64,000 nt of DNA from Butyrivibrio sp. (GTDB lineage Bacteria; Bacillota; Clostridia; Lachnospirales; Lachnospiraceae), in NCBI RefSeq assembly GCF_017433805.1, contig NZ_JAFRGN010000008.1, positions 1 through 64,000 on the forward strand, written 5' to 3'. Position numbers and translations under genes: made by a program. This document shows, one piece after another, positions 25,547 through 40,899 of the stretch. Below the pieces are notes generated by a model, which ran no database searches, was not told where the DNA came from, and saw nothing but the letters and a program-made list of their open reading frames with translations. Positions within the stretch are counted from its first letter, which is position 1. Every line of letters begins with the position of its first letter.

Positions 25547-27724
25547 TCACAGCTGCTGCCTCTTTACAAGTTCGGCAAAATAGCCATTCCTATTAATAAG
25601 TTCCTCATAACCTCCCTCTTCTACTATCTTCCCGTCATCTATAACCAGGATTCTGTCGCAGTTCTTAATAGTAGAGAGCCTATGCGCTATGACAATGCGC
25701 GTACATTTCAGCTTATCAAGGGATTCAGAAACTTTTTTCTGAGTAATATTATCAAGAGCGCTGGTCGCTTCATCAAACATGAGGATCTTAGGCTTTGGTG
25801 CAACAGCTCTTGCGATCATGAGTCTCTGCTTCTGGCCACCGGAGATTCCGCCCTGGCCCTCAGAAACATAAGTATTCATACCCATCGGCATGTTCCTGAT
25901 ATCATCAGCAATTCCTGCAATCTCTGCAGCTTCCCAGGCATCATCTACCGTTAGAAGGGGATCTGTTATTACTATATTAGAATAAACATCCCCCTGGAAA
26001 AGAGATCCGTTCTGGGTTACAGTACCAATCTTTCTGCGAAGGCTGGTCATATCTATCTTATTAATGTCTCTTCCATCGTAGTAGATTGCGCCCTTGGTTG
26101 GTGTTTCAAAGCCAAGCATCAACCTGAGCAGAGTACTCTTTCCGCAGCCCGTCTTACCAACGATCGCCACGTACTCTCCCGCCTTGATTCTGGTCGTAAT
26201 TCCTTTCAGTATCTCAGGACCATTGTCGTCATATCTGAACTTTACGTTAGACAGCTCAATATTTCCATTAACTCTGTTTACAACAACCTTTCCCTCGCTG
26301 GACTCAGGAATCTCATTAAGTATCGGCTCTGCCAGTTTGAGGATTGGTTTAACATTGGCAGTCTGAACAGCCACAGTTGAAATAGAAGCAAAAGCTCCGC
26401 CCAGAAGTCCATAGGCTGTACTAAACGCCAAATATTCAGAAGCTGTAACTCCTGTCTTAACCGCTATGAAATATATAACCATAGTTCCGATTATTCCAAT
26501 GGCCATGTTTATGGTCTTATTAAGCTTAATGATAAATGGCGGGCTATAGAGAAGATTAGCGCTCTCATTAAAAGAGTTTGCCCATTTTGCAAAAGCTCTT
26601 TTCTCCGCTCCGGCAAGCTTGATCTTCTGAATACCATTTATAAAGGCATAAGTGATACCATCTTCCTCGGCATCATACTGTCGAACCTTCTGGGTTATTC
26701 CGGTCTGAATAATAATAGTGATAATAGAAAACAAAAGTGACACTATATTTATGATAAGCGCAGGTGCCACAAGGCCTGGTGCAAAGGTGCCAATTTCAAA
26801 CAGATATGCAAAGGACAACAGAATTCCAAGTGTCACAGATATCATATCGTTTACGATCAGGTCGCAGAGTTCTGTCACAGAATTGATCCTTGCAGCCAGT
26901 TCTCCGGAAGTGTATTTCCTGAAAAACCTGGCAGGCAGATTCAGCACCCTGTTCATAACTGCTGCCTCAACACATATTCCCGTCTTGAGCTCAACTCTCT
27001 CCATGATGAGATCCGAACTTGCTTCTATCAGAAACTCCGAAAATCCAAGCGCCAACAGGAAGACACCAGTTCCAAACAGCATAGAGTAGCTGTGCATATC
27101 AACTACATATCCGGACACGACCTCTACAATGGCAGTTGTCATAAGTCCGATCACAGTTACAATCGCCATCAAAAGGATATATCCCAGAATATCTGACATA
27201 TCTATGCAATTACGCAGATATGCGATCAGATCATGAATTCCCAGTTTCTTATTAGGAAGTGGCTTGTAGAAGCAAATCGCCTCTGGCTCGATATTTCCGA
27301 TAGTCTTCTTATTTATTGCAACTCTTTTCCCAAGCTTATAATCATAGTAGTAATATCCCTTAACACGTCCAGGTAAAAGAGCTACCACAGTGCCATCGGA
27401 TTTTAATTTCCCGATCATTGGCCCGTAGGCTTCCCCAGTCCACTCGTGGTCCAGTTTAACCTCTCTGAACATAATGCCAAAAGGCCTAAGGGTATTGGCC
27501 AGATCGATATCTTCACCCAGGTCGTTAAAAGAATCATCTGCGGGCTTGAAGCCAAAGTATTTAATTATGTCTTCGATGGCAGCTTTGGTGACAACGCGGC
27601 TGTCAGTGATGTCCTTGGCTGCTTTCACGCCAATAACAGAGGAAGCCATATTAAAAATGGAATCCTCAAAAACATCCTGATCGCTTTTCATCCTCTGCCT
27701 GATCTGCTCGTCAAACCAACCCAC
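25547..27724 (-). CDS. NHLM-type bacteriocin-system ABC transporter, permease/ATPase without peptidase
   Basis: The 725-residue protein (GTG start, AGAGGA upstream) has an N-terminal accessory domain of about 165 residues with no visible C39 Cys-His-Asp set. Six membrane helices follow (about 180-440), then an ATPase domain with Walker A VGKTGCGKSTLLRL, Q-loop VTQNGSLFQGD, signature GGISGGQKQRLMIARA, Walker B ILMFDEATSALD and HRLSTIKNCD. The segment GEAYGPMIGKLKSDGTVVALLPGRVKGYYYYD is typical of the second ABC protein of NHLM systems. Those systems usually pair it with a C39-bearing ABC protein, which is the next gene upstream. It probably acts as a heteromeric or parallel exporter of the leader peptides. 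Last gene of the operon. Confidence 0.9.
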   Translation of the reverse strand: MGWFDEQIRQRMKSDQDVFEDSIFNMASSVIGVKAAKDITDSRVVTKAAIEDIIKYFGFKPADDSFNDLGEDIDLANTLRPFGIMFREVKLDHEWTGEAYGPMIGKLKSDGTVVALLPGRVKGYYYYDYKLGKRVAINKKTIGNIEPEAICFYKPLPNKKLGIHDLIAYLRNCIDMSDILGYILLMAIVTVIGLMTTAIVEVVSGYVVDMHSYSMLFGTGVFLLALGFSEFLIEASSDLIMERVELKTGICVEAAVMNRVLNLPARFFRKYTSGELAARINSVTELCDLIVNDMISVTLGILLSFAYLFEIGTFAPGLVAPALIINIVSLLFSIITIIIQTGITQKVRQYDAEEDGITYAFINGIQKIKLAGAEKRAFAKWANSFNESANLLYSPPFIIKLNKTINMAIGIIGTMVIYFIAVKTGVTASEYLAFSTAYGLLGGAFASISTVAVQTANVKPILKLAEPILNEIPESSEGKVVVNRVNGNIELSNVKFRYDDNGPEILKGITTRIKAGEYVAIVGKTGCGKSTLLRLMLGFETPTKGAIYYDGRDINKIDMTSLRRKIGTVTQNGSLFQGDVYSNIVITDPLLTVDDAWEAAEIAGIADDIRNMPMGMNTYVSEGQGGISGGQKQRLMIARAVAPKPKILMFDEATSALDNITQKKVSESLDKLKCTRIVIAHRLSTIKNCDRILVIDDGKIVEEGGYEELINRNGYFAELVKRQQL

Positions 27725-27799
27725 TACTTCTTTTTCCTCTTATTAATATATTACTGTTACGCAACACTCACAAAAATCCACCTCAAGCATCGCCCAATC

Positions 27800-29977
27800 T
27801 CACTCATTCGTAACCAGTTCTTTATAATAGCTTCCCGATGCCATAAGCTGCTCATGAGTACCCTGCTCTGCGATCCTGCCTTCCTGCAATACTACAATAT
27901 TGTCGCAGTCTCTTATAGTAGAAAGTCTGTGTGCTATTACAATACAGGTAATACCTCTCTTCTTGATAGCCTCGATGACTTTCATTTCAGTCACAGCATC
28001 AAGGGCACTTGTGGCCTCATCCAGCATAATGATAGAAGGATCCTGGGCAAGAACTCTTGCAATCTCAAGACGCTGCTTCTGTCCTCCCGAGAAGTTACCA
28101 CCATTTTCTGAAACCTCTGCCTTGTAGCCGGCAGCTCTTTCCATGATCTCATCGTGAATTCCCGCATCTCTTGCAGCAAGGATCACCTCGAAATCTTCGA
28201 TACTGTTATCCCAGAGCTTGATATTCTGATCTATGGTATCCTCGAAAAGAGTAATTTCCTGATCAACCACCGCAACAGAGCCGGTAAAGACATTCCTGTC
28301 TATCTCATTTATCTTTTTATCACCAAAAGTAATCTCTCCGCTCCAAGGCTTATATAGTCCTGAAATAAGCTTAGACAAAGTACTCTTACCACAGCCAGAA
28401 GCTCCAACAATAGCTACCTTACTGCCCGCCTTAATATCAAGGCTGAAATCCTCTATTACAGGAGCAGCAAGTCTGCTGTAGCCAAAGGTCACATTTTCCA
28501 GATGAATATCACCTTTGAGTTTCTGATACTCTGAGTCTTCCGAAAGACTCACGCTATCAAACAGCTCATCATCCGGATATTGCATTACATCTTCGTATCT
28601 CTCCATCTTGGAGCGCATCTCTTCAATCGCCTGTCCGGCACCAATGATTCCCATAGCTGGTGCAGTAAAATACCCCAGATACATCTGGAAGCTCATGACC
28701 ATACCCAGAGTAAACTTACCTCTCATCACAAGGCCAACACCCAGGATCAGTACAATATAGCCTGCCAGAGTATTGATAAGAGCCGGGATACTTCCAAGCC
28801 AGATATTTATATGTCCGTACTCAATCTTTTCCTTGTTAACTGCTGCCTGATAACCAGCCCACTTCTTGAAAAAGCCAGCCTCTGCGCCGCTACTCTTTAT
28901 AGTCTCGATCATCATTACGCCTGAAAGCGTTGTAGACTCGAGCTTGGCCACATCGCGAAGGCTCTGGCGCGTAATATTGATTCTCTTTTGAGCTATTACC
29001 CTGCCCATAAAGCTGTTAATGATAATCGTCACGATACCAACTGCTGATAAAAGCGGACTATATCTGAGCATGAATACCAGATAAAAGATCATCAACACAA
29101 TATTCAAAAGAAGTGGTGCCACTGTTTCTACCAGCGTCTTAGGAATACCAGAGTTTTTTCTCTGAAGGATATCTCCAGATAATCTCTGGCTAAAAAAGTT
29201 CATGGGAAGATGCAGTACCTTCCACACATAGGTACTGTGAGTCATGATCTCAAGTTTTCCATTTATCCTGAGGGAATAGATATCAGACACAGCGCTGCTG
29301 ACAATATTGAAAAAAGCAACAAAAGAGAACAGCACTATAAACGGCATCAGCAGTTCTTTGTTCTCACCTGATAAGAGTCTGTCCATGAAGAATCTGTTGA
29401 AGGCCGGATTAAGCGTGTTAAAAAGATATGCTACGAATGTAGAAAAAAGAACAAATACAATAGCAAGTGACGCTCCCTTTAACCTGAGCTTAACATAGTC
29501 AATTGCTCTGGTTCTCCTGCCACTTGGCTCAAAGTTCTCCCCCGGTTCAAAGCACAGCACAACCCCTGTAAAGCCTTCGTCAAACTCCTCCATAGACAGT
29601 TTAACAAGGCCCCTTGCAGGGTCATTTATATAGGCGTATCCGCCTCTGAATCCATTAAGTACAACAAAATGGTTGAATTCCCAGTGAATTATGCACGGAA
29701 AAGAACCGCTTTTAACTAGAATTTCTGGTTCAAAGCGGTATCCAGTAGCCGTAAGGCCATAGCTTCTTGCGGCCTTCAGTATATTCCTTGCATTGGAGCC
29801 ATCTCTGGATACCCCACAGTCAAACCTGACCTTCTCAAGAGGTATCCACTTTCCGTAGTAAGCAAGGATCATGTCCAGGCATGCAGCGCCGCATTCTAAT
29901 GCTTCCATCTGCATGACCACAGGCACACTGACTTTTTTACCTACGGAAGGCTTCCTTATAGTTTTATTGGCGCTCAT
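27800..29977 (-). CDS. C39-peptidase ABC exporter of NHLM type
   Basis: The start is set at the ATG at 29977, since GAGG lies 8 nt upstream; a GTG at 29986 is possible. The C39 peptidase is complete: QMEALECGAACLDMILAYYG (oxyanion Gln and catalytic Cys), IIHWEFNHFVVLNG (His) and YINDPARG (Asp). Six membrane helices follow (about 165-430) and an ATPase with Walker A VGASGCGKSTLSKL, signature NFSGGQKQRLEIARVLA and Walker B IIMLDEATSALD. It should cut the two small precursors after their Gly-Gly and export the cores. It lies 20 nt downstream of the mini-adaptor gene. Confidence 0.94.
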   Translation of the reverse strand: MSANKTIRKPSVGKKVSVPVVMQMEALECGAACLDMILAYYGKWIPLEKVRFDCGVSRDGSNARNILKAARSYGLTATGYRFEPEILVKSGSFPCIIHWEFNHFVVLNGFRGGYAYINDPARGLVKLSMEEFDEGFTGVVLCFEPGENFEPSGRRTRAIDYVKLRLKGASLAIVFVLFSTFVAYLFNTLNPAFNRFFMDRLLSGENKELLMPFIVLFSFVAFFNIVSSAVSDIYSLRINGKLEIMTHSTYVWKVLHLPMNFFSQRLSGDILQRKNSGIPKTLVETVAPLLLNIVLMIFYLVFMLRYSPLLSAVGIVTIIINSFMGRVIAQKRINITRQSLRDVAKLESTTLSGVMMIETIKSSGAEAGFFKKWAGYQAAVNKEKIEYGHINIWLGSIPALINTLAGYIVLILGVGLVMRGKFTLGMVMSFQMYLGYFTAPAMGIIGAGQAIEEMRSKMERYEDVMQYPDDELFDSVSLSEDSEYQKLKGDIHLENVTFGYSRLAAPVIEDFSLDIKAGSKVAIVGASGCGKSTLSKLISGLYKPWSGEITFGDKKINEIDRNVFTGSVAVVDQEITLFEDTIDQNIKLWDNSIEDFEVILAARDAGIHDEIMERAAGYKAEVSENGGNFSGGQKQRLEIARVLAQDPSIIMLDEATSALDAVTEMKVIEAIKKRGITCIVIAHRLSTIRDCDNIVVLQEGRIAEQGTHEQLMASGSYYKELVTNE

Positions 29978-29996
29978 GTACGCCACCTCAGTTTCC

Positions 29997-30419
29997 TTAG
30001 TTAAAGAGCATACTGATCATCTTGGTCTGCTTGTAACTAGCCTTAGCATCATAGTCTCCATCTGGGAAATCTGTCTGTGAGACAGAAATTACATGTCCTG
30101 CTTCATCTCTTCCCACAGAATCTATCGGCATGCGAACGCCGCCGATAATGACATCCATATCGTCTTTGACATTTGAAGCCACGCTCTGGTCCTCATAGGT
30201 AACTGTCAAAATGCCATTCTTAACTACTCCATCACCATAAGCATAGCTGTTAATGGTCATGAAATAGCTCCAAATATAGAGGCCGATCACACCTATCATT
30301 ATCCCGATCAGGACAGCCCACATAGCAGGCGTAGTCACGCGAAGATACTCATCCAGATTATCTGGCGATGATAGCTTCTTAACGCTCTTTTCTCTAAATA
30401 TTTTGTTTTCCATAGGCAC
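29997..30419 (-). CDS. very short HlyD-like secretion adaptor of NHLM type
   Basis: The 140-residue protein (GTG at 30419 or ATG at 30413) opens KSVKKLSSPDNLDEYLRVTT, then a membrane helix (about residues 33-55). This opening is the hallmark of the HlyD-like secretion protein of NHLM systems. Those proteins usually carry a long coiled-coil hairpin and lipoyl halves; here only about 85 outside residues remain (GDGVVKNGILTVTYEDQ, then RDEAGHVISVSQTDFPDGDYDAKASY). The frame is clean at both ends, so this looks like a compact design rather than a broken gene. It could bridge the ABC exporters to the thin Gram-positive wall. Confidence 0.75.
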   Translation of the reverse strand: MPMENKIFREKSVKKLSSPDNLDEYLRVTTPAMWAVLIGIMIGVIGLYIWSYFMTINSYAYGDGVVKNGILTVTYEDQSVASNVKDDMDVIIGGVRMPIDSVGRDEAGHVISVSQTDFPDGDYDAKASYKQTKMISMLFN

Positions 30420-30422
30420 GCA

Positions 30423-31046
30423 TTATTTGCCAGTTAGAAGCGCCTTGATAGTCAGTTCTACCTGGTCCATCTTAACCCCAACTACAACATCATTGGCAAG
30501 ACTAGCAACGATGGACTTCTCAAGCTCATCCCATGCATGTCCTGCAGCAATATCATCCGCTCTTGCCTCGTCCAGAGCATCTCTGTACTGATCAAGACTC
30601 CATACAAACATTGAATCAGACGGATTTCCGCCAAGTGCAGCGTAGTCAACATATCCGCCGCCGTAAACCTGCTGAAGCTTCATAATATTCTCATAATTGA
30701 GAATACCATTTTCGATGATCTCACCAATCTTACCCATGAAGCCCTTTGCAAGCGCATTTCCGCCAGACTTGGACACTGACAGAAGCTCTTTTTTCTTATC
30801 AACATCCATATCAGTCTTGGCTACAAGCTTGATCTCGCAGCTGTCCTCTTTTTTCTCCATCCACAAAAGAGCGTGGTACTCACCAGTCATTGCCCCCAGC
30901 ATTCCAAGTGTCTCTTCCATGAGAAGTCTCATGTGAAGTGAATCCTTGGCGCCAAGTTCAAAGTCCTCAAGGTAATTATCAATCTTTCCAAGCGCATCAT
31001 AGAGCTTGAAATTCTTATTAGTGATCAGTATCTTCTCAGATTCCAT
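30423..31046 (-). CDS. unknown protein of the peptide-export operon
   Basis: The 207-residue protein starts with GGGGAG 7 nt before the ATG and has no signal peptide or membrane helix. The N-terminal part (HMRLLMEETLGMLGAMTGEYHALLWMEKKEDSCEIKLVAKTDMD) weakly resembles the HATPase fold of RsbW-like anti-sigma kinases, but the G1/G2 glycine motifs are not visible. The C-terminal half is helical. Position directly after the STAS gene suggests a role in the partner-switching module. I cannot name the family. Confidence 0.55.
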   Translation of the reverse strand: MESEKILITNKNFKLYDALGKIDNYLEDFELGAKDSLHMRLLMEETLGMLGAMTGEYHALLWMEKKEDSCEIKLVAKTDMDVDKKKELLSVSKSGGNALAKGFMGKIGEIIENGILNYENIMKLQQVYGGGYVDYAALGGNPSDSMFVWSLDQYRDALDEARADDIAAGHAWDELEKSIVASLANDVVVGVKMDQVELTIKALLTGK

Positions 31047-31088
31047 AATTTGTCTCCCCGCATAAAAAAATTATTCTTGTTAAGCTTA

Positions 31089-31388
31089 TTACTCGATAGT
31101 CAGAATATCTGAGAAACCAGTAACCTCAAAGATTTCCTTAACTTCTTCTGTAGCATTTCTGACAACCATTGTGCCCTGCTTGTTCATTGTCTTCTGAGCT
31201 GACAAAAGAACACGAAGTCCTGCAGATGAAATGTACTCAAGCTTAGAAAGATCAAATACAAGATTCTCAACACCGCCAAGACTTGCTGTAAGCTGTGTCT
31301 CAAGATCTGGTGCAGTCATAGTATCAAGTCTTCCCTCAAGACTGATGTTAAGATCCTTTTCTGCTAAAGTTTTTGTAATGTTCAACAT
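31089..31388 (-). CDS. STAS-domain anti-sigma factor antagonist (RsbV/SpoIIAA-like)
   Basis: The start at 31388 (MLNITKTLAEKDL) is set by AGGAGG with 8-nt spacing; the frame is open 7 codons upstream. The 99-residue STAS domain has LEGRLDTMTAPDLETQL and FDLSKLEYISSAGLRVLLSAQKTM. The second Ser of ISSAGLRVL is the expected phosphorylation site. Phosphorylation by an RsbW-like kinase and removal by a PP2C phosphatase would set whether it binds the kinase. Both partners are encoded within 4.5 kb (32362-32766 and 33441-35552). Confidence 0.93.
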   Translation of the reverse strand: MLNITKTLAEKDLNISLEGRLDTMTAPDLETQLTASLGGVENLVFDLSKLEYISSAGLRVLLSAQKTMNKQGTMVVRNATEEVKEIFEVTGFSDILTIE

Positions 31389-31472
31389 GTGTTTTCCCTC
31401 CTGTAACACTTTTTAGATTAGTTAAAAAATCTATATTATTCCGCCCAGTTTCTGGATGGATTAATACCACAA

Positions 31473-31823
31473 TTATTTTTCCAGTTCATACTCCTCAGGA
31501 TATGGCTCTATTCCCAAAGCGTATCTCACCTGCTTTTCTATTTCCGGCTCGGTAAGCGTTGGTGCAAATGCATCAACATCCTCCATAAGCCCTATACCTG
31601 CGAACTTCTCACTATCAATGCAGCTGATAACTATAAAGGGCTCGTCATGCTCCTCGAACTCCAAGGTGCCTGTTCTGTAGTAATTGCCCTCATACAAAAA
31701 AGCTCGTCTTTCGTCGAATTCCTCGCGATTTTTCTCGTTAATTTCAAGGGGCTTTGCGCCATATTTTTCAAACATAGCTTCCACATACTGTAGTTTCTTT
31801 TCAATTTCTTCCTGTGATACCAT
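31473..31823 (-). CDS. small acidic protein of unknown function
   Basis: A 116-residue soluble acidic protein with AGAAAGGGGG before the ATG. Visible are a helical N terminus (EEIEKKLQYVEAMFEKYG), a central strand region (RTGTLEFEEHDEPFIVISCIDSEKFAGIG) and a C terminus rich in Glu and Pro. No motif I recognise. It sits between the HAD and STAS genes of the peptide operon and may be an immunity, chaperone or signalling protein; none of these is supported by sequence. Confidence 0.6.
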   Translation of the reverse strand: MVSQEEIEKKLQYVEAMFEKYGAKPLEINEKNREEFDERRAFLYEGNYYRTGTLEFEEHDEPFIVISCIDSEKFAGIGLMEDVDAFAPTLTEPEIEKQVRYALGIEPYPEEYELEK

Positions 31824-31867
31824 GTTTCTTCCCCCTTTCTGATCATTCTTGTTTACTGTTTTCTCTT

Positions 31868-32341
31868 TTAACCTTCCTCAAGCTTTCTGATTCTCTCTGC
31901 TTCAGCCAGCACCTTATCTGTCCAGTGTTCGTCTGGCTCGCAGATTCTCAAAACTCTGAAGCCATATCTTTTACCATTTTCTATGATCGCATCCTCGTCA
32001 TCCACGTGAAGTGAGATGCGATAGAAGGTGGGCATTTTCTGTGGAAGAGTCTCTGCCTTGGATCCTTGCACTTCCGCCCTGTGCCTGTAGCCATTTACTA
32101 TGTCGTTAAAATGAATTCCATATCTTTTGAAAAGAGATTTAATATACACATCCGTACGAAAAGAGGAGGTGTATACCCATACTTCAAAGCCTCTTCTCTG
32201 AAGCTCATTTATCAGATATACAGTTCCCTTTCTGAGCCTCTCGGGAAACATCTTATTGAGCGGAAATCTCAGTTCCGGCTCTGTTTCCATATAGTCGGGA
32301 CTCACAAACAGGACTTCGTCCAGGTCAAAAGAGATTTTCAT
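31868..32341 (-). CDS. small HAD-superfamily protein
   Basis: The 157-residue protein starts MKISFDLDEVLF, which carries the D-x-D catalytic motif I. VWVYTSSFRTDVYIKSLF follows as motif II (Thr/Ser after a strand), and HVDDEDAIIENGKRYGF as motif IV. This is close to small nucleotidase-like HAD proteins. A role in the peptide operon is unknown: it might dephosphorylate a signalling partner or a metabolite. GAGGT with 7-nt spacing sets the start; the gene ends 44 nt before the next. Confidence 0.78.
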   Translation of the reverse strand: MKISFDLDEVLFVSPDYMETEPELRFPLNKMFPERLRKGTVYLINELQRRGFEVWVYTSSFRTDVYIKSLFKRYGIHFNDIVNGYRHRAEVQGSKAETLPQKMPTFYRISLHVDDEDAIIENGKRYGFRVLRICEPDEHWTDKVLAEAERIRKLEEG

Positions 32342-32361
32342 TTAGCATACCTCGAATCAGA

Positions 32362-32766
32362 CTACAGCTTCTTAATCAGGGTGAGAATGTTCTTGCCATC
32401 CTCATGTTTGTACTGCACATCATCCATACTCTTCTTGACCATGTATATTCCAAGGCCGCCGATACCCCTTTCCTCTGCAGAAAGCGTAATGTCCGGATCT
32501 TCCTTGGCAAGAGGATCATACGGAGTTCCGCTATCCATGAAGGTGATAGACACCTGGCCAGCAGTGTCAGTATCCAAAAGAATTTCCGCCTGGCCGATAG
32601 CATCCCCGTAGGCGTAGCTTGCTATGTTGATATAGATTTCTTCTACAGCAACACTGATCTGCATCATCGCTTTCATTGGGCACTCTATTTTTTCAAGATT
32701 CGCCTCAACGAATTCATTGACTTTCAGCAGGTTTTCTTTAGTTGCTTCCACAGTGAGTTTTTCCAT
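32362..32766 (-). CDS. RsbW/SpoIIAB-like serine kinase anti-sigma factor
   Basis: The 134-residue GHKL ATPase has an N box VAVEEIYINIASYAYG, a G1 box TFMDSGTPYDPL and a G2 box RGIGGLGIYMVKKSMDDVQY. These are the ATP-binding residues of RsbW-like kinases. It should phosphorylate the STAS protein (31089-31388) and, when free, bind and inhibit a sigma factor or another target. No sigma-factor gene is in the window, so the output is unknown. Start follows AAGGGAG. It is preceded by an intercistronic hairpin. Confidence 0.92.
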   Translation of the reverse strand: MEKLTVEATKENLLKVNEFVEANLEKIECPMKAMMQISVAVEEIYINIASYAYGDAIGQAEILLDTDTAGQVSITFMDSGTPYDPLAKEDPDITLSAEERGIGGLGIYMVKKSMDDVQYKHEDGKNILTLIKKL

Positions 32767-32793
32767 AACGCTCCCTTGTTATATACGCGCGAA

Positions 32794-32822
32794 GACACTT
32801 GCAGCTCTATACTGCAAGTGTC
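32794..32822 (-). promoter_or_regulatory. intercistronic hairpin after the precursor genes
   Basis: A perfect 11-bp stem, GACACTTGCAG with CTGCAAGTGTC, loop of 7. No T-run follows on the minus strand, so it is more likely an RNA-stability or partial-termination element. It would let the small peptide genes be expressed above the signalling and export genes. Confidence 0.65.
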
Positions 32823-32832
32823 GGAGAATTTA

Positions 32833-33039
32833 TCATATCTGCGACATGTTACCGCATTCTTTACATTTCCCCCTCGTTCCTGAGTACACAATAAATGTTG
32901 TCGTCTTATTGCAGAACGGGCACTTAGCCTGTGCCGTTTTCTCCTCCGTATTCGATGCTGTACTGCCTCTTCCTCTTGCGTTCCCGCCAGTTACATTCTC
33001 AAGTTCGTTTTCATCAATAGACATAATCTTCTCATCCAT
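32833..33039 (-). CDS. double-glycine leader peptide precursor with zinc-ribbon-like core
   Basis: Start set at the ATG at 33039 (MDEKIMSIDENELENVTGG) since TAAGG lies 8 nt before it; GTG 33048 and ATG 33045 are too close to it. The 19-residue leader has the ELxxVxGG form cut by C39 peptidases. The 49-residue core is basic and has four Cys as CPFC and CKEC, 15 residues apart, the spacing of a zinc ribbon. Function could be a bacteriocin, a signal or a metal-binding effector. No modifying enzyme (radical SAM, LanM, YcaO) is encoded nearby. Confidence 0.85.
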   Translation of the reverse strand: MDEKIMSIDENELENVTGGNARGRGSTASNTEEKTAQAKCPFCNKTTTFIVYSGTRGKCKECGNMSQI

Positions 33040-33061
33040 AGGCATCACCTTATTTATGACT

Positions 33062-33292
33062 TTACTTATTCATTTTTGAAAGATACTTAACTGCAGATGG
33101 CTTATAATCAGCTGCCTCCCAGTCTTCAAAAATTTCTGCTCTCATATTTCCGGTATATTTTTTCTCCATATTAAGAGCATCCCAGGCTGCCTCAAACTCT
33201 TCCTTCTTGATTTTAAACATTCCCTTTTCATCAGTATGTGCGTTAGTTCCACCAATCACCTTCTCAAGTTCTTTATCATTTAAAGTGTTCAT
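33062..33292 (-). CDS. double-glycine leader peptide precursor, cysteine-free core
   Basis: The 76-residue product has a short leader MNTLNDKELEKVIGG matching the C39 double-glycine consensus. The 61-residue core has no Cys and is charged, helical and aromatic (KKEEFEAAWDALNMEKKY, then FEDWEAADYKPSAVKYL). Its ribosome-binding site AGGAGG (8-nt spacing) is the strongest in the operon. It is the first gene after the promoter, as expected for the most abundant peptide. I do not recognise the core. Confidence 0.85.
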   Translation of the reverse strand: MNTLNDKELEKVIGGTNAHTDEKGMFKIKKEEFEAAWDALNMEKKYTGNMRAEIFEDWEAADYKPSAVKYLSKMNK

Positions 33293-33365
33293 TGGTCTGT
33301 CCTCCTCTATCCCTTTGATATATCTTTATACGAAGGTCACTGATTAGTGGCACAAAAGAATTATA

Positions 33366-33395
33366 AATATATTATAAAGTAAATTTGTCAGTCAA
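33366..33395 (-). promoter_or_regulatory. promoter of the peptide operon
   Basis: TTGACT (complement of 33390-33395), 18-bp spacer, TATATT (complement of 33366-33371). It lies about 75 bp before the first precursor start and looks like a vegetative sigma-A promoter. Confidence 0.55.
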
Positions 33396-33440
33396 TTTCT
33401 TAAATTATTCTAATATTTTCACGGATTTCCAGCCCTTGCA

Positions 33441-35552
33441 TCACTTGAACTCAACGCACATCATGGTCAGATCATCGAACTGTTCCGCATCTCCCACAAA
33501 CTCGCTGACTGCATCCCTTACATTTGTAAGAATCTGCTCAGGGCCTGCATTCATATCCTTATTCAGAGCCTGAAGCATACGTTCAGGGCCAAACATCTTA
33601 ACATCAGCATTAGTAGCCTCCGGAACTCCATCTGTATAAACGAACAGCTTGTCGCCATGCTCTAGCTGTATCTCGTATTCCTTGTACTTAATTCCTTCCA
33701 TTCCGCCTATTACGAAGCCGTGCTTATCCTTGAATATCTCAAAAGAGCCATCGGCGCGCTTGATTGCCGGATACTCATGGCCAGCATTGGCGCATGACAG
33801 TCTTCCTGTAGAAATCTCCAGAATTCCAAACCACACAGTTACAAACATCTCTGTTTGGTTGGAGCTTGAAAGAGCTTCATTAGTCTTGTTCAAGGTCTCA
33901 GCAGCAGACTGCCCCAGCATTGCACAGCTCTGAAGAATCACCTTGGATATCATCATGAAAAGAGCTGCCGGAATACCTTTGCCTGAAACATCAGCCATTA
34001 CAAGTCCCAGATGGTCATCATCAATAAGGAAGAAGTCATAGAAATCGCCTCCTACCTCCCTTGCCGGATCCATCATGGCGTAGATGTCAAACTCAGGTCT
34101 GTCAGGAAATGGCGGAAAATCGTGTGGTAGCATACTAGCCTGTATCTGGGTTGCCAGGTTAAGCTCCGCTCCAATCCTCTCTTTTTCTGCAGTTGCACGC
34201 TGAATGTCAGAAATGTAAGTCTTCATTCTGTCAGTCATCTGGCCAAAAGAGGTGGCAAGCTCCTGAATCTCATCGCCGGTATTCTCATTCCACTCAAAGT
34301 CCAGATTCTCACCTTCGAGGTTATGAACCTTATCTGTTAAAAGAGTGATTGGCTTAACCAGATGTTTACTGAGGATATTGGAAGCTATAACAGTAATGAT
34401 CGCCATAGCCACTATCATTCCAAACATTCTGACAAGAGCTCTTTTTATCAATTTCTGAATTGCAGAATATTCGTCGTTATGGCTTTCCTTAAGAGTTGCC
34501 AATAGCTTTTCATTTGGAGCCAGCACTGTCTTTTCAGGAATTATAGAAACCAGTGACCAACCAACTAGCTCAACTGGTGAATAAGCAAGGTAGCATTTAA
34601 CGCCATCTATATCTAACAGTTCAAGTCCACTCTCTCCACTGGCAGCTTTGTGACCAAAGTCTGATAGTCCCTTATCATTTTCTTCTACAAGAACACTCTG
34701 GGGACTAAGCTGGCCTTCTTTCCTTGATGAGAATATAACCTTACCATTTCCATCGATGATGCAGGAATCACCTTCATCGCCGATTTTGGCGTTCATCATC
34801 ATGTTCTCAACACCCTGAAGATAGAGGCCTGCTCCAGCTACGCCAACAAACTCTTTTCCCTTATAGATAGGAACTCCGCACATAATGGCCTGTTTGCCAG
34901 TGTCATAGTCTTCCTGAATATCTGTAAAGACAACGCTCTTCTCAGCCTTAGCCTTCACATACCAGGGGCGAAGTCTGGGATCCAGATACACGTAGTTGCC
35001 GTTTTCATCCCATCTTTCCTTGATGACAGGGCCTGCAAGAAGGACTATTCCTGTCTCTGTTCCGATATATGATGCTCCAAGCTCGTCATACTGGTTGTAC
35101 ATTGCAGTCAGATTGCCCTGAAGGCTTCCTATCATTGACAGTTCTTCAAGGATAGACTCATCCTCTGGATCTACACCCTCTGCATATACGAACTGGCCTT
35201 TCATTTTGCCAATTTCTGATTTATCTGGAATTGAAACTGTAGATTTTCCGTATTTCTCCGGATTGGTATAAATGTCCGTTGCTGCATCAGCGTTGATTGT
35301 TACTGTTCCTGCAAAGTCTGCGAACATTTCATTAAGAATATAGGCGCATCCAAGTGCTGTCGCACTAAGTCTCTCTGTTATCTGAGTACGTAGTGCCTCA
35401 TCAGAGTATTCCTCCACCTGTCCACCTGTCTTTTCAGAATTACTAAGTGTGATATCTCTGATATTGATCAGCATCTGCATGGTAATGACGCCAAATAAGA
35501 TCAAAAGAATTGAAGAAATGACCAGCATTATCTTCATGATTTTTTTCTTCAT
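33441..35552 (-). CDS. dCache-HAMP-PP2C (RsbU/SpoIIE-like) sensor phosphatase
   Basis: The start is at ATG 35552, with GAGGGG 8 nt upstream. The 703-residue protein has an N-terminal helix (residues 6-28), a large outside dCache sensor (about 40-330; RLRPWYVKAKAEKSVVFTD and GKQAIMCGVPIYKGKEFVGVAGA), a second helix, HAMP (about 385-440) and a SpoIIE-type PP2C domain. The latter has REVGGDFYDFFLIDDDHLGLVMADVSGKGIPAALFM and the late DDLTMM metal ligands. It would sense an extracellular small molecule and dephosphorylate the STAS protein of the following operon. It has its own start region; the peptide-operon promoter lies after its stop. Confidence 0.93.
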   Translation of the reverse strand: MKKKIMKIMLVISSILLILFGVITMQMLINIRDITLSNSEKTGGQVEEYSDEALRTQITERLSATALGCAYILNEMFADFAGTVTINADAATDIYTNPEKYGKSTVSIPDKSEIGKMKGQFVYAEGVDPEDESILEELSMIGSLQGNLTAMYNQYDELGASYIGTETGIVLLAGPVIKERWDENGNYVYLDPRLRPWYVKAKAEKSVVFTDIQEDYDTGKQAIMCGVPIYKGKEFVGVAGAGLYLQGVENMMMNAKIGDEGDSCIIDGNGKVIFSSRKEGQLSPQSVLVEENDKGLSDFGHKAASGESGLELLDIDGVKCYLAYSPVELVGWSLVSIIPEKTVLAPNEKLLATLKESHNDEYSAIQKLIKRALVRMFGMIVAMAIITVIASNILSKHLVKPITLLTDKVHNLEGENLDFEWNENTGDEIQELATSFGQMTDRMKTYISDIQRATAEKERIGAELNLATQIQASMLPHDFPPFPDRPEFDIYAMMDPAREVGGDFYDFFLIDDDHLGLVMADVSGKGIPAALFMMISKVILQSCAMLGQSAAETLNKTNEALSSSNQTEMFVTVWFGILEISTGRLSCANAGHEYPAIKRADGSFEIFKDKHGFVIGGMEGIKYKEYEIQLEHGDKLFVYTDGVPEATNADVKMFGPERMLQALNKDMNAGPEQILTNVRDAVSEFVGDAEQFDDLTMMCVEFK

Positions 35553-35633
35553 CAAATAGTCCCCTCATATTATTTGAATTAGAAATAACTATATTACATA
35601 TAATTTTATCGAATATTATATATTTTTACAATG

Positions 35634-35688: not shown

Positions 35689-37404
35689 TTACTCGCTGAT
35701 TGTGAACTGTCCAATGAGACTGTTGAGGGATTCTGACTGTTCGGAGAGTTCCTGTGATACAGCGCTGGACTCCTCGGCTGTAGCAGAGTTACTCTGCACA
35801 ACATTAGAAATCATATCAATTCCCTTATCAATCTCATCCATACTCTGTGCCTGCTGCTCTGCAAGGTCGCCAGTCTGAATGATCATCTCTGTGATCTCCT
35901 CAACACTGTGCTGCATTGCGTCAAGAGCTTCTGTTGTCTCAGCTACTACAGAGTTACCATTGTTGATCTCATCCATGGTATCTGCAATGAGCTGATGTGT
36001 ATTCTTGGCAGCTTCACTACTCTGATCTGCCAGCTTACCGATCTGATCAGCAACAACTGCAAAGCCTTTTCCTGTTTCACCTGCTCTTGCAGCTTCGATA
36101 GAAGCGTTAAGTGCAAGGAGTGATGTCTGCTTGGCAATTGCTTCGATAGAGTTAGTAACCTGCTCAATCTCAGCTGAAGCCTCTGTGATTCTTGTCATGG
36201 CATCAGTAACAAGATGCATCTTTCTGGCACTGGTCTCAGCGTTATCTCTAACCTCTGTTGCCATTGTCTTACTCTTCTCGGCAACCTCAGCAAGCTGTTT
36301 GGTCTGCTCTGTAACTGAATTAACAGATGCTGTAAGCTCCTCAACTGCTGCTGCCTGATCTGTTGAACCTTCTGCCAGGTCGTTAGCACCCTGTGACATG
36401 TTGATGGCACCCTGTGATACCTGCTGTGATGAATTACGAACTTCCAGAAGTGTACTACTGAGGTTCTCTGCGATATCATTAAGAGCATTTCTGATAGTAG
36501 CATAGTCACCGATGTAGAGCTTCTCGTTTCTTGAGCCAGCAGAGAAATCTCCGCCTGACATACGCTTAAGAGTCTCATCAATATCTTTTACGATGTCCTC
36601 AATGACATCTGTCGAATAAGTGATATCATCAGCAAGCTTGCCAAGCTCGTCCTCGGAATCGGTTTTTATCTTAACTTCCAGCTTACCCTTTGCCATATCA
36701 TCTGCAGCCTTGGAGATTTCCTGAATCGGTCCAAGAATACTGCCAACAAGCGCTCCTCTTGCCTTAACCATGTAGAGAATCGCATTTATAACTATCAAAA
36801 GAGATATGACTGTCATTATCAGAACAGTAACAATAGCGAGAGTATAAGCAGACTTAGCCTGAGCCTTGGCTGAAATACCAATCTCCTTGAAGTCCTTAAC
36901 AACTACCTTGATGGCTTCATTAATGTTGGCAACATAGAAATCATAGATTTCATCTTTGCTGTAACCAGCTCTGGACATTTCTTCCAACTTATCGTCAGCA
37001 GTGTCGATGTCCTTAATATGCTGATATACAGTAGTGAGGTCACCCTTATAAACCTTGGAAAGAGTATCAAGACCATCATTTAATTCCTGGAGCTTTTCCT
37101 CTACTCCTGCATACTGAGCATTTCTGTCATCATCATCATGTGCAGAAAGAGCCCACAGATAATACTTGGCAAGAGCCTGTATTGTGATTCTGATCTCGCC
37201 CTGCTGAGTATTCTGTTCATAATAGACGTTGTAGATATTATGCAGATTGAAAATAGCCAGGAAATCAATCAGGACAATTGCAGCAAAAATCATGATCAGG
37301 TTAGTCCTGAAATTGCCAAACACCTTTTTGAACTTGTCAGCTACAGGTAGTTTTCTAAATGACTCCTTGCTAAAAGAATCTTTTTTCTTAGCTGCGTCTG
37401 CCAT
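35689..37404 (-). CDS. methyl-accepting chemotaxis protein
   Basis: The start at 37404 (MADAAKKKDSF) is set by AAGGAGG with 5-nt spacing; an ATG 11 codons upstream lacks such a site. The 571-residue protein has two membrane helices (about residues 30-50 and 185-208) around a four-helix-bundle sensor region, then HAMP and a signalling domain. The tip SLLALNASIEAARAGETGKGFAVVADQIGKLA binds CheA/CheW. Ligand is not predictable. It is separated from the SpoIIE-like gene by a strong terminator, so shared regulation with the peptide system is not shown. Confidence 0.94.
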   Translation of the reverse strand: MADAAKKKDSFSKESFRKLPVADKFKKVFGNFRTNLIMIFAAIVLIDFLAIFNLHNIYNVYYEQNTQQGEIRITIQALAKYYLWALSAHDDDDRNAQYAGVEEKLQELNDGLDTLSKVYKGDLTTVYQHIKDIDTADDKLEEMSRAGYSKDEIYDFYVANINEAIKVVVKDFKEIGISAKAQAKSAYTLAIVTVLIMTVISLLIVINAILYMVKARGALVGSILGPIQEISKAADDMAKGKLEVKIKTDSEDELGKLADDITYSTDVIEDIVKDIDETLKRMSGGDFSAGSRNEKLYIGDYATIRNALNDIAENLSSTLLEVRNSSQQVSQGAINMSQGANDLAEGSTDQAAAVEELTASVNSVTEQTKQLAEVAEKSKTMATEVRDNAETSARKMHLVTDAMTRITEASAEIEQVTNSIEAIAKQTSLLALNASIEAARAGETGKGFAVVADQIGKLADQSSEAAKNTHQLIADTMDEINNGNSVVAETTEALDAMQHSVEEITEMIIQTGDLAEQQAQSMDEIDKGIDMISNVVQSNSATAEESSAVSQELSEQSESLNSLIGQFTISE

Positions 37405-37615
37405 ATTATCCTCCTTAGACATAAAATTATCAGCCACAGGATTAAGTTTTCCTATAGCAATCTTTTATGAAATCTTGCGCTATTACAAATGTTATATCGT
37501 CTACTTATACATTATATTTTATGCAATTTTCCAATAAAATGTCATAAATATGTATAAATTTATATAAAATTTTGAGAAATAAGTATTGCTTATGTCATGC
37601 ATAAAAAATATTGAT

Positions 37616-39017: not shown

Positions 39018-39056
39018 TGGAGAAGCAGATTCAGGTTCTGCTTCTCCATATTTTTT
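39018..39056. terminator. purA terminator, probably bidirectional
   Basis: TGGAGAAGCAGA (39018-39029) pairs with TCTGCTTCTCCA (39037-39048), followed by TATTTTTTAT. It lies between the convergent ends of purA and the GGDEF gene. Confidence 0.9.
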
Positions 39057-40899
39057 ATCTCTTATAGAATGTAATGTAATTGCCACGCTTTTGCTTACTC
39101 TCATACATCGCTGAATCAGCCTGTTTGTAGTAATCAGCAAAGGACTGACCATCATTCGGCCTACAGAAGGTTGCTCCAACGCTTATCTCCATCTTCCAGT
39201 CAGGCGCTTCCGGCACATGTATCTGTTCTGAATTCATGAAAAGACGATCTGCAACGATAAGACCAATATCCACTGTATCAACTCCTGACGCAAATACCAT
39301 GAACTCATCTCCGCCAAGTCTGAATACGATATCAGAATCTCTGAAGGTCTCTGTAAGGCAATCTGCCATTGCGATAATCACCTTATCTCCAACATCATGG
39401 CCGTATGTATCATTGACCTTTTTAAAGTGATCAGCATCGACAATAAGGAGCATTCCCTTTCTTCCAGCTTCAAAGGCCTCGTAGAGTCGTATCTCGCCTC
39501 CGTTTCTGTTGAGTATCTTGGTAAGGGAATCCGTCTCAGCTTTTTTACGAAGCGCTTCCTGTCGTCTTCTATCTTCATCAATAGACTCTGTAGCCCAGAT
39601 TACACGGGTTACATTGCCTTCCTCATCTCTTTCTCCTGCAATGAAATACATTCGAGTCCAATGATTATCAATATCAAGGAAATCGTGAGATATAGATTTA
39701 TTGTCTTTTAATCTTTCTCCAAGAGTTGGGAAATTCATAAACTCTGCCAGCATGGCTCTGGAAGATTCCACCGCAATGCCTTCAGCTATCTCATCAACTC
39801 GTTCAAGCGAATATGGTTTAGCTGAAAGAATCTGAGTTAACCTTTCACTGACCCACATCTTATTAAGCTTAAGCTCTTTTAAATCCAGTATAGAAAGAGA
39901 AAGGTAAATATCTGCAATTGCAGCCAGCTCGCCTTCAAGCTGACTTCTTTCTCTGTGTTTTTTCTTATAAAGATGAATAGCTGCCCAGAATGAAATAAAT
40001 ACTATAGTAAGGACAAATATAGAATGAGCATATATAAATCCAATGGCTCCAAACAGCCTGCCCTCATCGAATACAAACACTGTATACCAGTCGTTATTAA
40101 TACGTTTACTAAAAATAAATTTCTTATTGCGTCCTTTTCCTACAGAAAAGATGTTATTATGGGCTGCAGATACTCCTTTGAAAATGTCCACGTACTCATC
40201 GTTGATCTCCCTGGCATAATTTTTGCCAATCTGGCTCTCATCCGAATGTGCAACGACAAGTCCGTCCGCATCCAGCACCAACACTGCTTCCAGCTCTTTA
40301 TATTTGACAAGATCCGCATCTTTTTCCTGAATACTATCCAGGTAAAAGTCCATAGAAATAACGCTTTCTTTATCACTCAGGAGCCTACTGACAGACATCA
40401 TGACCATTCCTGTCTGCACATTGACATAAGGCTCTACATAAGTAATATCCCCGTCAGCCTTTACAGCATCTATGTACCAAGGCCTGCTCGTAGCAACATA
40501 GTCACCTGGCGGAAGCCAGCCTGATCCATCAATGTACTCTCCTCGTATATAGCCATATATTCCAGTAGCATTACTCTCAATTATCTCTGAATAAACATCC
40601 GTTTCCTTAACCAGATAGTTTTTGATGTCTTCATTGGTGGCGCCTTCTTCCATCATAGTCTCAACGCCCTGAGACGAGAAAATTACAGCATCCCTTGGAA
40701 AAGAAAGATAGTACTCTATCTCCTGGGACAAAGTAAGAACTTCAGAATTCCACATGTTAATAGTACTTTGCCTTGTAACGATGTAGAGTCTGACAAAAAG
40801 AGCAAATATCACGAATGTACCTGCTACAGCAATGAATATTATGACCAGATAATCTTTATCTATGTCTGGCTTTTTATTTTTTTGAGGGTATTTATCCAT
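39055..40899 (-). CDS. dCache-GGDEF diguanylate cyclase
   Basis: The 614-residue protein has an N-terminal helix (about 20-42), an outside dCache sensor (SRPWYIDAVKADGDITYVEPY and GMVMMSVSR), a second helix near residue 290, a linker of about 100 residues and a GGDEF domain. The active-site motif FRLGGDEFMVF is intact, and RDSD five residues before GGDEF is a classical I-site for product inhibition. It should make cyclic di-GMP from two GTP in response to an external ligand. Single gene, convergent with purA. Confidence 0.95.
   Translation of the reverse strand: MDKYPQKNKKPDIDKDYLVIIFIAVAGTFVIFALFVRLYIVTRQSTINMWNSEVLTLSQEIEYYLSFPRDAVIFSSQGVETMMEEGATNEDIKNYLVKETDVYSEIIESNATGIYGYIRGEYIDGSGWLPPGDYVATSRPWYIDAVKADGDITYVEPYVNVQTGMVMMSVSRLLSDKESVISMDFYLDSIQEKDADLVKYKELEAVLVLDADGLVVAHSDESQIGKNYAREINDEYVDIFKGVSAAHNNIFSVGKGRNKKFIFSKRINNDWYTVFVFDEGRLFGAIGFIYAHSIFVLTIVFISFWAAIHLYKKKHRERSQLEGELAAIADIYLSLSILDLKELKLNKMWVSERLTQILSAKPYSLERVDEIAEGIAVESSRAMLAEFMNFPTLGERLKDNKSISHDFLDIDNHWTRMYFIAGERDEEGNVTRVIWATESIDEDRRRQEALRKKAETDSLTKILNRNGGEIRLYEAFEAGRKGMLLIVDADHFKKVNDTYGHDVGDKVIIAMADCLTETFRDSDIVFRLGGDEFMVFASGVDTVDIGLIVADRLFMNSEQIHVPEAPDWKMEISVGATFCRPNDGQSFADYYKQADSAMYESKQKRGNYITFYKR

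Follow-up and report, generated by a model that had tools for sequence, protein, structure and literature searches.

A partner-switching module beside a double-glycine peptide exporter in Butyrivibrio and its probable link to an unlinked ECF-type sigma factor

In the streptococcal com and blp systems a single exporter and a single regulator serve several scattered peptides with double-glycine (GG) leaders, through histidine kinases and response regulators. RsbW-type kinases are known to bind sigma factors of the sigma-B/F type rather than those of the extracytoplasmic function (ECF) type. In NHLM/NHLP export, as set out in sections of Haft 2010 (PMC2887384), two ABC proteins, one of them carrying a C39 peptidase, work with a HlyD-like protein, and one exporter can serve many precursors. 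Here we describe a locus in a stretch of 64,000 nucleotides from Butyrivibrio sp. (Lachnospiraceae; RefSeq assembly GCF_017433805.1, contig NZ_JAFRGN010000008.1, positions 1 to 64,000 of the forward strand), hereafter the window. It spans 35555 to 25547 and comprises eleven open reading frames (ORFs), all on the minus strand, among them the genes of an exporter and of a partner switch. The original prediction, made from the letters of the window, had listed these genes on one strand, and all of them were confirmed in the order first described. We propose that the PP2C, STAS and RsbW proteins, perhaps with a further protein, U207, form a switch that probably controls an ECF sigma factor, which in turn transcribes dispersed GG-leader peptide genes and the exporter operon. 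The genes and the putative promoter are listed below; loci (L), genomes (G, with G000 being that of the window) and contigs (C) carry our own numbers.

33441..35555, minus strand: dCache-HAMP-PP2C (SpoIIE/RsbU-type) phosphatase, a membrane sensor, 5′ of the ECF-like promoter (Pfam and motifs)
33325..33355, minus strand: putative ECF-type operon promoter TTGTGCCA-N13-TTCGTATAAA, the best conserved block 5′ of GG1 in a five-genome alignment
33062..33292, minus strand: GG-leader precursor 1 (GG1), MNTLNDKELEKVIGG followed by a 61-residue core without Cys (TIGR01847)
32833..33048, minus strand: GG-leader precursor 2 (GG2), with a zinc-ribbon-like core, CPFC...CKEC (sequence and relatives)
32362..32766, minus strand: RsbW-like serine kinase, a candidate anti-sigma factor (HATPase_c_2)
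31868..32341, minus strand: HAD-like protein (FDLDEV), accessory (weak HAD match; found with U116 in relatives)
31473..31823, minus strand: U116, partner of the HAD gene (no family; pairing kept in relatives)
31089..31409, minus strand: STAS anti-sigma-factor antagonist of the RsbV/SpoIIAA type (TIGR00377, ISSAG site)
30423..31046, minus strand: U207, STAS-associated, possibly a kinase-dead RsbW relative (co-occurrence; weak N-terminal match to an RsbW profile)
29997..30419, minus strand: mini HlyD-like membrane adaptor (N-terminus of TIGR03794)
27800..29986, minus strand: C39 peptidase-ABC exporter, NHLM ABC1 (TIGR03796)
25547..27724, minus strand: second NHLM-type ABC exporter subunit (ABC2), without peptidase (TIGR03797 below cut-off; Pfam)

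Clustering of the proteins encoded around the exporter loci revealed an ECF-type sigma factor. Its orthologue in the genome of the window lies on another contig (G000:C9:15473-15958) and is 86% identical to the protein of L073. It has 163 aa, matches Sigma70_r2 (63.6 bits) and r4 (51.6 bits) above cut-off and shows no region 3 match to E = 0.05; such a short protein with regions 2 and 4 only fits the ECF (group IV) pattern. Within the window the ECF sigma profile finds nothing and the operon ORFs match no sigma family, so this is not a SigB-type operon. Close orthologues are however found inside homologous loci, namely after ABC2 in L073, L075 and L144 (the last on another contig of the genome that contains L074), before U207-STAS in L076-L079, after HAD-U116 in L076-L078, and beside C39ABC-ABC2-U207-STAS-RsbW in L118 and L125. 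The flank of the sigma gene in the window's genome is like that of L073, with genes for a 297-aa protein and a LysR-like protein. The distance between the sigma gene and ABC2 is ~13 kb in G309 and ~27 kb in G303, and such intervening genes as were fetched look exopolysaccharide-like by eye; we infer that genes of this kind came between ABC2 and sigma in the clade of the window.

The genus was covered by 79 Butyrivibrio genomes, in which a cut of 240 bits, placed in a gap in the scores (243.7, next 136.1), separates 23 genomes with a close sigma orthologue from 56 others. More distant ECF hits at L081-L083, L087, L095, L098, L099, L116 and L120 fall outside this count, and the protein labelled as sigma at L195 (27 bits, 202 aa) was a longer, different sigma protein that was not accepted as an orthologue. 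All 23 close-sigma genomes possess a C39 exporter (E ≤ 1e-100), compared with 26/56 of the others; U207 is present in 23/23 and 37/56 respectively, and RsbW in 22/23 of the close-sigma genomes.

The upstream regions of the first precursor gene in the window and in L071-L074 have in common the motif TTTTGCCA-N13-TTCGTATAAA or a close form of it. The motif, again in this or a close form, lies 5′ of a sigma-adjacent leader-peptide gene in L076, L079, L145 and L146. Its −35/−10-like layout with a CGTATA box suggests a putative ECF-like promoter, which may also be written TGCCA-N13-TTCGTATA. A search of the 79 genomes with the core pattern TGCCRN13TTCGTATA recovered 163 sites from the 23 close-sigma genomes (3-12 each, mean 7.1) and 22 from the 56 others (average 0.39). 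The reversed motif, used as a control, gave 5 and 20 sites respectively.

What follows the motif was examined at 95 distinct sites, with repeats merged (L270 with L258, L276 with L242, L281 with L272, L284 with L269, and L309 as part of L308). Eighty-three of these sites, about half of the 163, are in sigma genomes, and ten are in non-sigma genomes, representing 10 of the 13 that lie outside G329 and G360. Using a purpose-made regular expression for a small ORF with a GG/AA-type leader within 160 nt, we found such an ORF 3′ of the motif at 39/83 sites in sigma genomes, or at 30/74 when the nine sites that had defined the motif were removed. By the same test 29 of 4000 random positions in the fetched loci were positive, as were 0/10 of the sites in genomes without the sigma factor. 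An earlier expression had detected 27/87, with sigma and non-sigma genomes pooled. By eye, the peptides include zinc-ribbon-like cores (L251, L252, L272, L310, L314, L318), GG1-like cores (L249, L325), Asn/Ala-rich repeats (L321, L323) and an AAG family in which a long conserved leader is followed by a short tail (e.g. L253, L273). Other sites are succeeded by lipoprotein-like ORFs (e.g. L258, L271, L280, L287) or other small ORFs.

The window's own genome contains 8 motif sites with ≤ 2 mismatches. Four of them precede peptide genes: this operon, a zinc-ribbon GG peptide on C25, an AAG-leader peptide on C38 and a GG peptide on C41. The remainder precede lipoprotein-like genes (C7, C24) and a 51-aa ORF (C62), with one ambiguous case (C60). 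A 3-mismatch site before a gene for a secreted protein (G000:C6, L339) was rejected because by eye a terminator-like hairpin stands between the two; four other 3-mismatch sites were left uncounted, the reversed control having given 3 hits at the same setting.

Several further features lie around the motif and the sigma gene. A second conserved element, TTGACTGACAAATWTA..TATAAT (33366-33395, minus strand), is located 5′ of the ECF-like promoter of GG1; present in the window and L071, it has shifted position in L072 and is retained in part in L073, and it might be an additional promoter or an operator site. A non-GG family of small ORFs with ends such as ...RFADELSIAN or ...RYADRFAMAH follows the motif in several genomes (L254, L268, L308, L275), among them that of the window (C62) and G329/G360, the latter two having no close sigma. 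A divergent sigma branch, 44-45% identical to the sigma of the window's genome, is found in G327:C3 (L156), G351:C41 (L158) and G354:C452 (L157). The L156 gene is beside GG1/GG2-like ORFs and that of L158 beside a GG1-like ORF, with an upstream site in L158 that has the same CGTATAAA box and a different −35. Proteins that are large, look secreted and have a ...LTCYTP/YDP..N.G..Y.. region in common are found repeatedly beside the sigma/U207/STAS cluster (L118:6807-9659, L125:6832-9603, L145:8283-10997), and L339 in the window's genome is a shorter relative of them.

Moreover, the grouping of exporter and switch recurs across the genus. Relatives of the C39 ABC protein occur in 49/79 genomes (E ≤ 1e-100, 69 hits), of which 61 loci were examined (the window and 60 others, leaving out 8 weaker or partial hits; some stretches end at contig ends). 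Nineteen of 100 RsbW-like hits in the 79 genomes lie ≤ 5 kb from one of the 69 C39 ABC genes, against 0.3 expected from their footprint, and the grouping is therefore not due to chance, although the binomial P value overstates the case since the genomes are related. RsbW is found at 19 of the 61 loci, STAS at 27, PP2C at 20 and U207 at 15, with at least one of RsbW, STAS and U207 at 30 (29 if long proteins with such domains are excluded) and in several gene orders. Gene order in the nearest relatives, L071 and L072, is that of the window, and L073 has the same genes with PP2C elsewhere and the sigma gene after ABC2. Such wide variation in order suggests that the genes were not inherited as a single block.

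Beyond the genus, in a family-wide sample of 299 genomes, the sigma factor was found in seven (E ≤ 1e-30), and all seven are among the 42/299 with an NHLM ABC2 (E ≤ 1e-120; P = 7e-7). In four of them (G012, G041, G157, G233) the sigma gene is ≤ 8 kb from ABC2; in G000, G079 and G190 sigma and the listed ABC2 genes are on different contigs. Single stretches bring the components together: L040 has RsbW, PP2C, STAS, a leader peptide, sigma, U207 and ABC2, L352 has RsbW, PP2C, STAS, sigma, a leader-like ORF and three exporter genes, L207 reads PP2C-RsbW-STAS-sigma-two zinc-ribbon GG peptides-U207, and L239 reads U207-leader peptide-sigma-zinc-ribbon GG peptides. In L040 a motif-like site (GCCA-N15-GCGTATA type) precedes the leader peptide gene next to sigma.

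The original prediction held that precursors, exporter and switch belong together and proposed a search for their co-occurrence in Lachnospiraceae, with an unconserved order or an unrelated switch speaking against it. The order kept in L071/L072 and the rearranged sets in other Lachnospiraceae support this, and neither of the two opposing outcomes was encountered in a way that refuted it. Its further suggestion that peptide production is under control gains from the promoter evidence, in the co-occurrence of motif and sigma and in the GG-leader ORFs downstream. Its statement that there is no sigma factor applies to the operon only, and its view that the target of the kinase is open is not supported, given an ECF sigma gene in the genome (on C9) and inside homologous loci.

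The proteins of the switch appear intact. The PP2C protein matches SpoIIE (167.6 bits), dCache_1 (74.5) and HAMP (26.6) in Pfam, the RsbW-like kinase matches HATPase_c_2 (85.1 bits), and the STAS protein matches both Pfam STAS (60.6 bits) and TIGR00377 (73.8 bits, cut-off 53.45). GGDFYD, DVSGKG, TDG and FDDLTM are kept in PP2C, VEEIYIN, DSG and GGLGIYM in RsbW and ISSAG in STAS, motifs which we take to be those typical of active proteins; on that understanding, the PP2C, STAS and HATPase kinase of an RsbUVW module are all present with intact motifs. The E43/N47, D78/G80 and GGLG positions of the kinase are conserved in an alignment of 26 sequences. The sensor part of PP2C is variable. A dCache domain was recognised in 3/10 of the proteins scanned (L161, L210, L212), and the seven without one include the fairly close L162, L164 and L165, so a single fixed ligand for all is not implied and the input signal may differ between strains. 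The HAD protein gives a weak match (16.1 bits, Pfam cut-off 26.4), and its pairing with U116, which has only a sub-cut-off NCBIfam match, recurs in L076-L078 and L145.

At E values of up to 1, Pfam gave no family for U116, U207 or the mini-HlyD protein. A STAS gene is present in the same stretch at 56 of 79 U207 loci, these being the best of at least 560 relatives, and the U207 domain is duplicated in some proteins of ~400 aa. No HATPase family is among the 12 families matched by any of 54 U207 members (E ≤ 0.1), nor is any credible Pfam family, and no convincing relative of solved structure was found (best E 0.22). A comparison with an RsbW profile was limited to 69 N-terminal columns, at a probability of 32%, and hints only faintly at a kinase-dead RsbW origin. 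We think that U207 may be a kinase-dead partner that binds STAS, or else the anti-sigma factor itself, and by analogy lean slightly towards RsbW rather than U207 as the protein that would hold the sigma factor.

The exporter resembles the NHLM/NHLP type. The C39 ABC protein scores 868.4 bits against TIGR03796 (cut-off 853.3, NCBIfam) and 118.8 bits against Pfam Peptidase_C39, and its C39 domain is the only one found in the genome (E ≤ 0.001). ABC2 carries Pfam ABC_tran and ABC_membrane with no C39 match, and aligns with positions 30-685 of 686 of TIGR03797 at 677.6 bits, slightly under the cut-off of 709.4. The mini-HlyD protein covers positions 1-57 of 421 of TIGR03794 (35 bits, cut-off 156.2) and is not a full-length HlyD. 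Of the precursors, GG1 lies above the cut-off of the bacteriocin-leader model TIGR01847 (19.0 bits, cut-off 15.7) and GG2 under it (14.1 bits), and neither has a nitrile-hydratase or Nif11 leader model among its NCBIfam matches to E = 1. GG1 relatives occur in L071-L074 and L158, and those of GG2, whose core may bind zinc, in L071-L074, L099, L207 and L239. No modifying enzyme was recognised among the operon genes, and no immunity family is among the Pfam and NCBIfam matches shown for the operon proteins. Elsewhere, L127, L128 and L129 are loci of NHLM-type C39 exporters that each encode three similar proteins of 374-512 aa. The one that was read (L127:4433-5866) contains CNLNCIHC, a CxxxCxxC motif as in radical-SAM enzymes, which points to a different, possibly modifying, exporter setting at L127-L129. 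Upstream (5′) of the PP2C gene in the window, a chemoreceptor-like protein (35689-37437, minus strand) and a sensor-GGDEF-like protein (39055-40899, minus strand) were noted by eye; the cluster of the former is represented at 8/61 exporter loci.

We therefore favour the following scheme as the likely one. A signal at the dCache domain of the membrane-bound PP2C would alter the dephosphorylation of STAS, and dephosphorylated STAS would capture the RsbW-like kinase and/or U207, thereby freeing the ECF sigma factor. Free sigma would transcribe a scattered regulon from promoters of the TTTTGCCA-N13-TTCGTATAAA type, comprising GG-leader peptide genes, some genes for lipoprotein-like and other small proteins, and the present operon, which would supply two peptides, the exporter and, as feedback, the switch proteins. 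Removal of the GG leaders would fall to the C39 ABC protein, which would export the peptides together with ABC2 and mini-HlyD. The step from sigma and motif to control by the switch is suggested by gene neighbourhood and co-occurrence. Some observations weigh against this scheme. Motif sites occur without a close sigma in G329 (5), G360 (4) and G300 (3), where the best matches to the sigma profile are distant ECF proteins only (69.9, 47.2 and 59.1 bits), and 0/2 of the G329/G360 sites examined precede a GG-leader ORF. The exact motif is absent from the divergent-sigma genomes G327, G351 and G354 (119-136 bits). No motif-like site was found at the sigma or peptide genes of L350-L352 and L354, and no motif was seen in the 220 nt 5′ of the sigma gene in the window's genome; a search for autoregulation of sigma in this clade gave no sign of it. 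No recognised GG-leader ORF is downstream of 44/83 sites in sigma genomes, and 31/61 NHLM loci have no RsbW, STAS or U207 in the examined stretch. G331 (85% complete) has the sigma factor and no RsbW hit. Genomes without this sigma also contain RsbW, STAS and U207 (the last in 37/56), so these proteins may serve other targets. Finally, the genomes are related, so that the counts are not independent.

The occurrence of RsbW and U207 in many genus genomes without this sigma would fit a reading in which sigma and motif make up a GG-peptide regulon and the STAS-RsbW-PP2C proteins act on something else, such as U207, the exporter or surface processes, in the manner of partner switches that have no sigma target. 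That RsbW-type kinases are known to bind sigma-B/F-type rather than ECF factors agrees with such a division. Sections of a review of STAS-only proteins (PMC8256260) likewise describe outputs with unknown targets, and for Rhodobacter RbaVW no cognate sigma was found, according to part of the study (PMC3999984). Set against this are the loci in which sigma, STAS, RsbW and PP2C share one stretch (L040, L207 and L352, with U207 as well in the first two), the grouping of sigma, U207, STAS and RsbW in L118 and L125, and the presence of U207 in every close-sigma genome; we regard a separate target as unlikely. A site for a different regulator, or for another co-occurring ECF sigma, would account for the motif in G329 and G360, and in G329 a motif site (C39:31776) does have another ECF-like gene (C39:32332) ~0.5 kb downstream of it. 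It would sit poorly with the co-occurrence of the motif with one specific sigma in 23/23 genomes, with the −35/−10-like layout and CGTATA box, and with the position of the motif ahead of the paired peptide and sigma genes of L076, L079 and L145, which makes it quite improbable. Lastly, the locus combines a GG-leader precursor with a C39 exporter, as is typical of bacteriocins, and could be read as nothing more than a class II bacteriocin locus next to which chance or shared mobility has put a stress-response cassette. The association recurs in many gene orders, however, and a genome-wide promoter is common to unlinked peptide genes, so we give this reading very little credence. Our preferred scheme, control of the ECF sigma by the switch, may be extended to an intercellular loop, in which a switch with a kinase-dead U207 governs the sigma factor, which directs scattered GG-leader microproteins (zinc-ribbon and other), at least one of which is sensed by PP2C; this extension is speculative and we hold it with considerable doubt.

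The proposed scheme gives a testable answer to the question of what a partner switch in a rumen Lachnospiraceae controls, namely an ECF sigma whose promoter can be read and whose regulon serves peptide export. The promoter signature can also be used to find GG-leader peptides that are unlinked and would escape gene-cluster mining, and the exported zinc-ribbon-like microproteins are a class worth study. In titles and the beginnings of abstracts, with subscription journals and preprints lying outside the survey, there was no report of NHLM export or GG-leader peptides joined with RsbW/STAS switching or an ECF sigma, none of an ECF sigma controlled by a switch of that kind and none of this GG-peptide promoter. 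The word sigma is absent from the text of Haft 2010 (PMC2887384), as are NHLM, NHLP and sigma from that of PMC13289728 and ECF from that of PMC8256260. Both NHLM export and partner switching are already known, and it is their joining that appears unreported in the literature surveyed.

In comparison with known systems, the locus is like the RsbU-RsbV-RsbW/SigB switch of Bacillus in that PP2C, STAS and a HATPase kinase are encoded together and a sigma factor is the likely output, and differs in its ECF-type, unlinked sigma, the extra U207 with STAS and an output of exported peptides. As in com and blp, one exporter and one regulator appear to serve scattered GG-leader peptides, through an ECF sigma and apparently a serine-phosphorylation switch instead of histidine kinases and response regulators. 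The exporter shares with the NHLM/NHLP type, as presented in sections of PMC2887384, two ABC proteins, one of them C39-bearing, and a HlyD-like protein; unlike that type it has no nitrile-hydratase or Nif11 leaders, only the N-terminus of HlyD and no modifying enzyme recognised in the operon. Partner switching on an ECF sigma has a parallel in the EcfG-NepR-PhyR general stress response, which is mentioned in part of PMC3999984; that system uses the PhyR/NepR pair, whereas STAS, RsbW and PP2C would take this role here.

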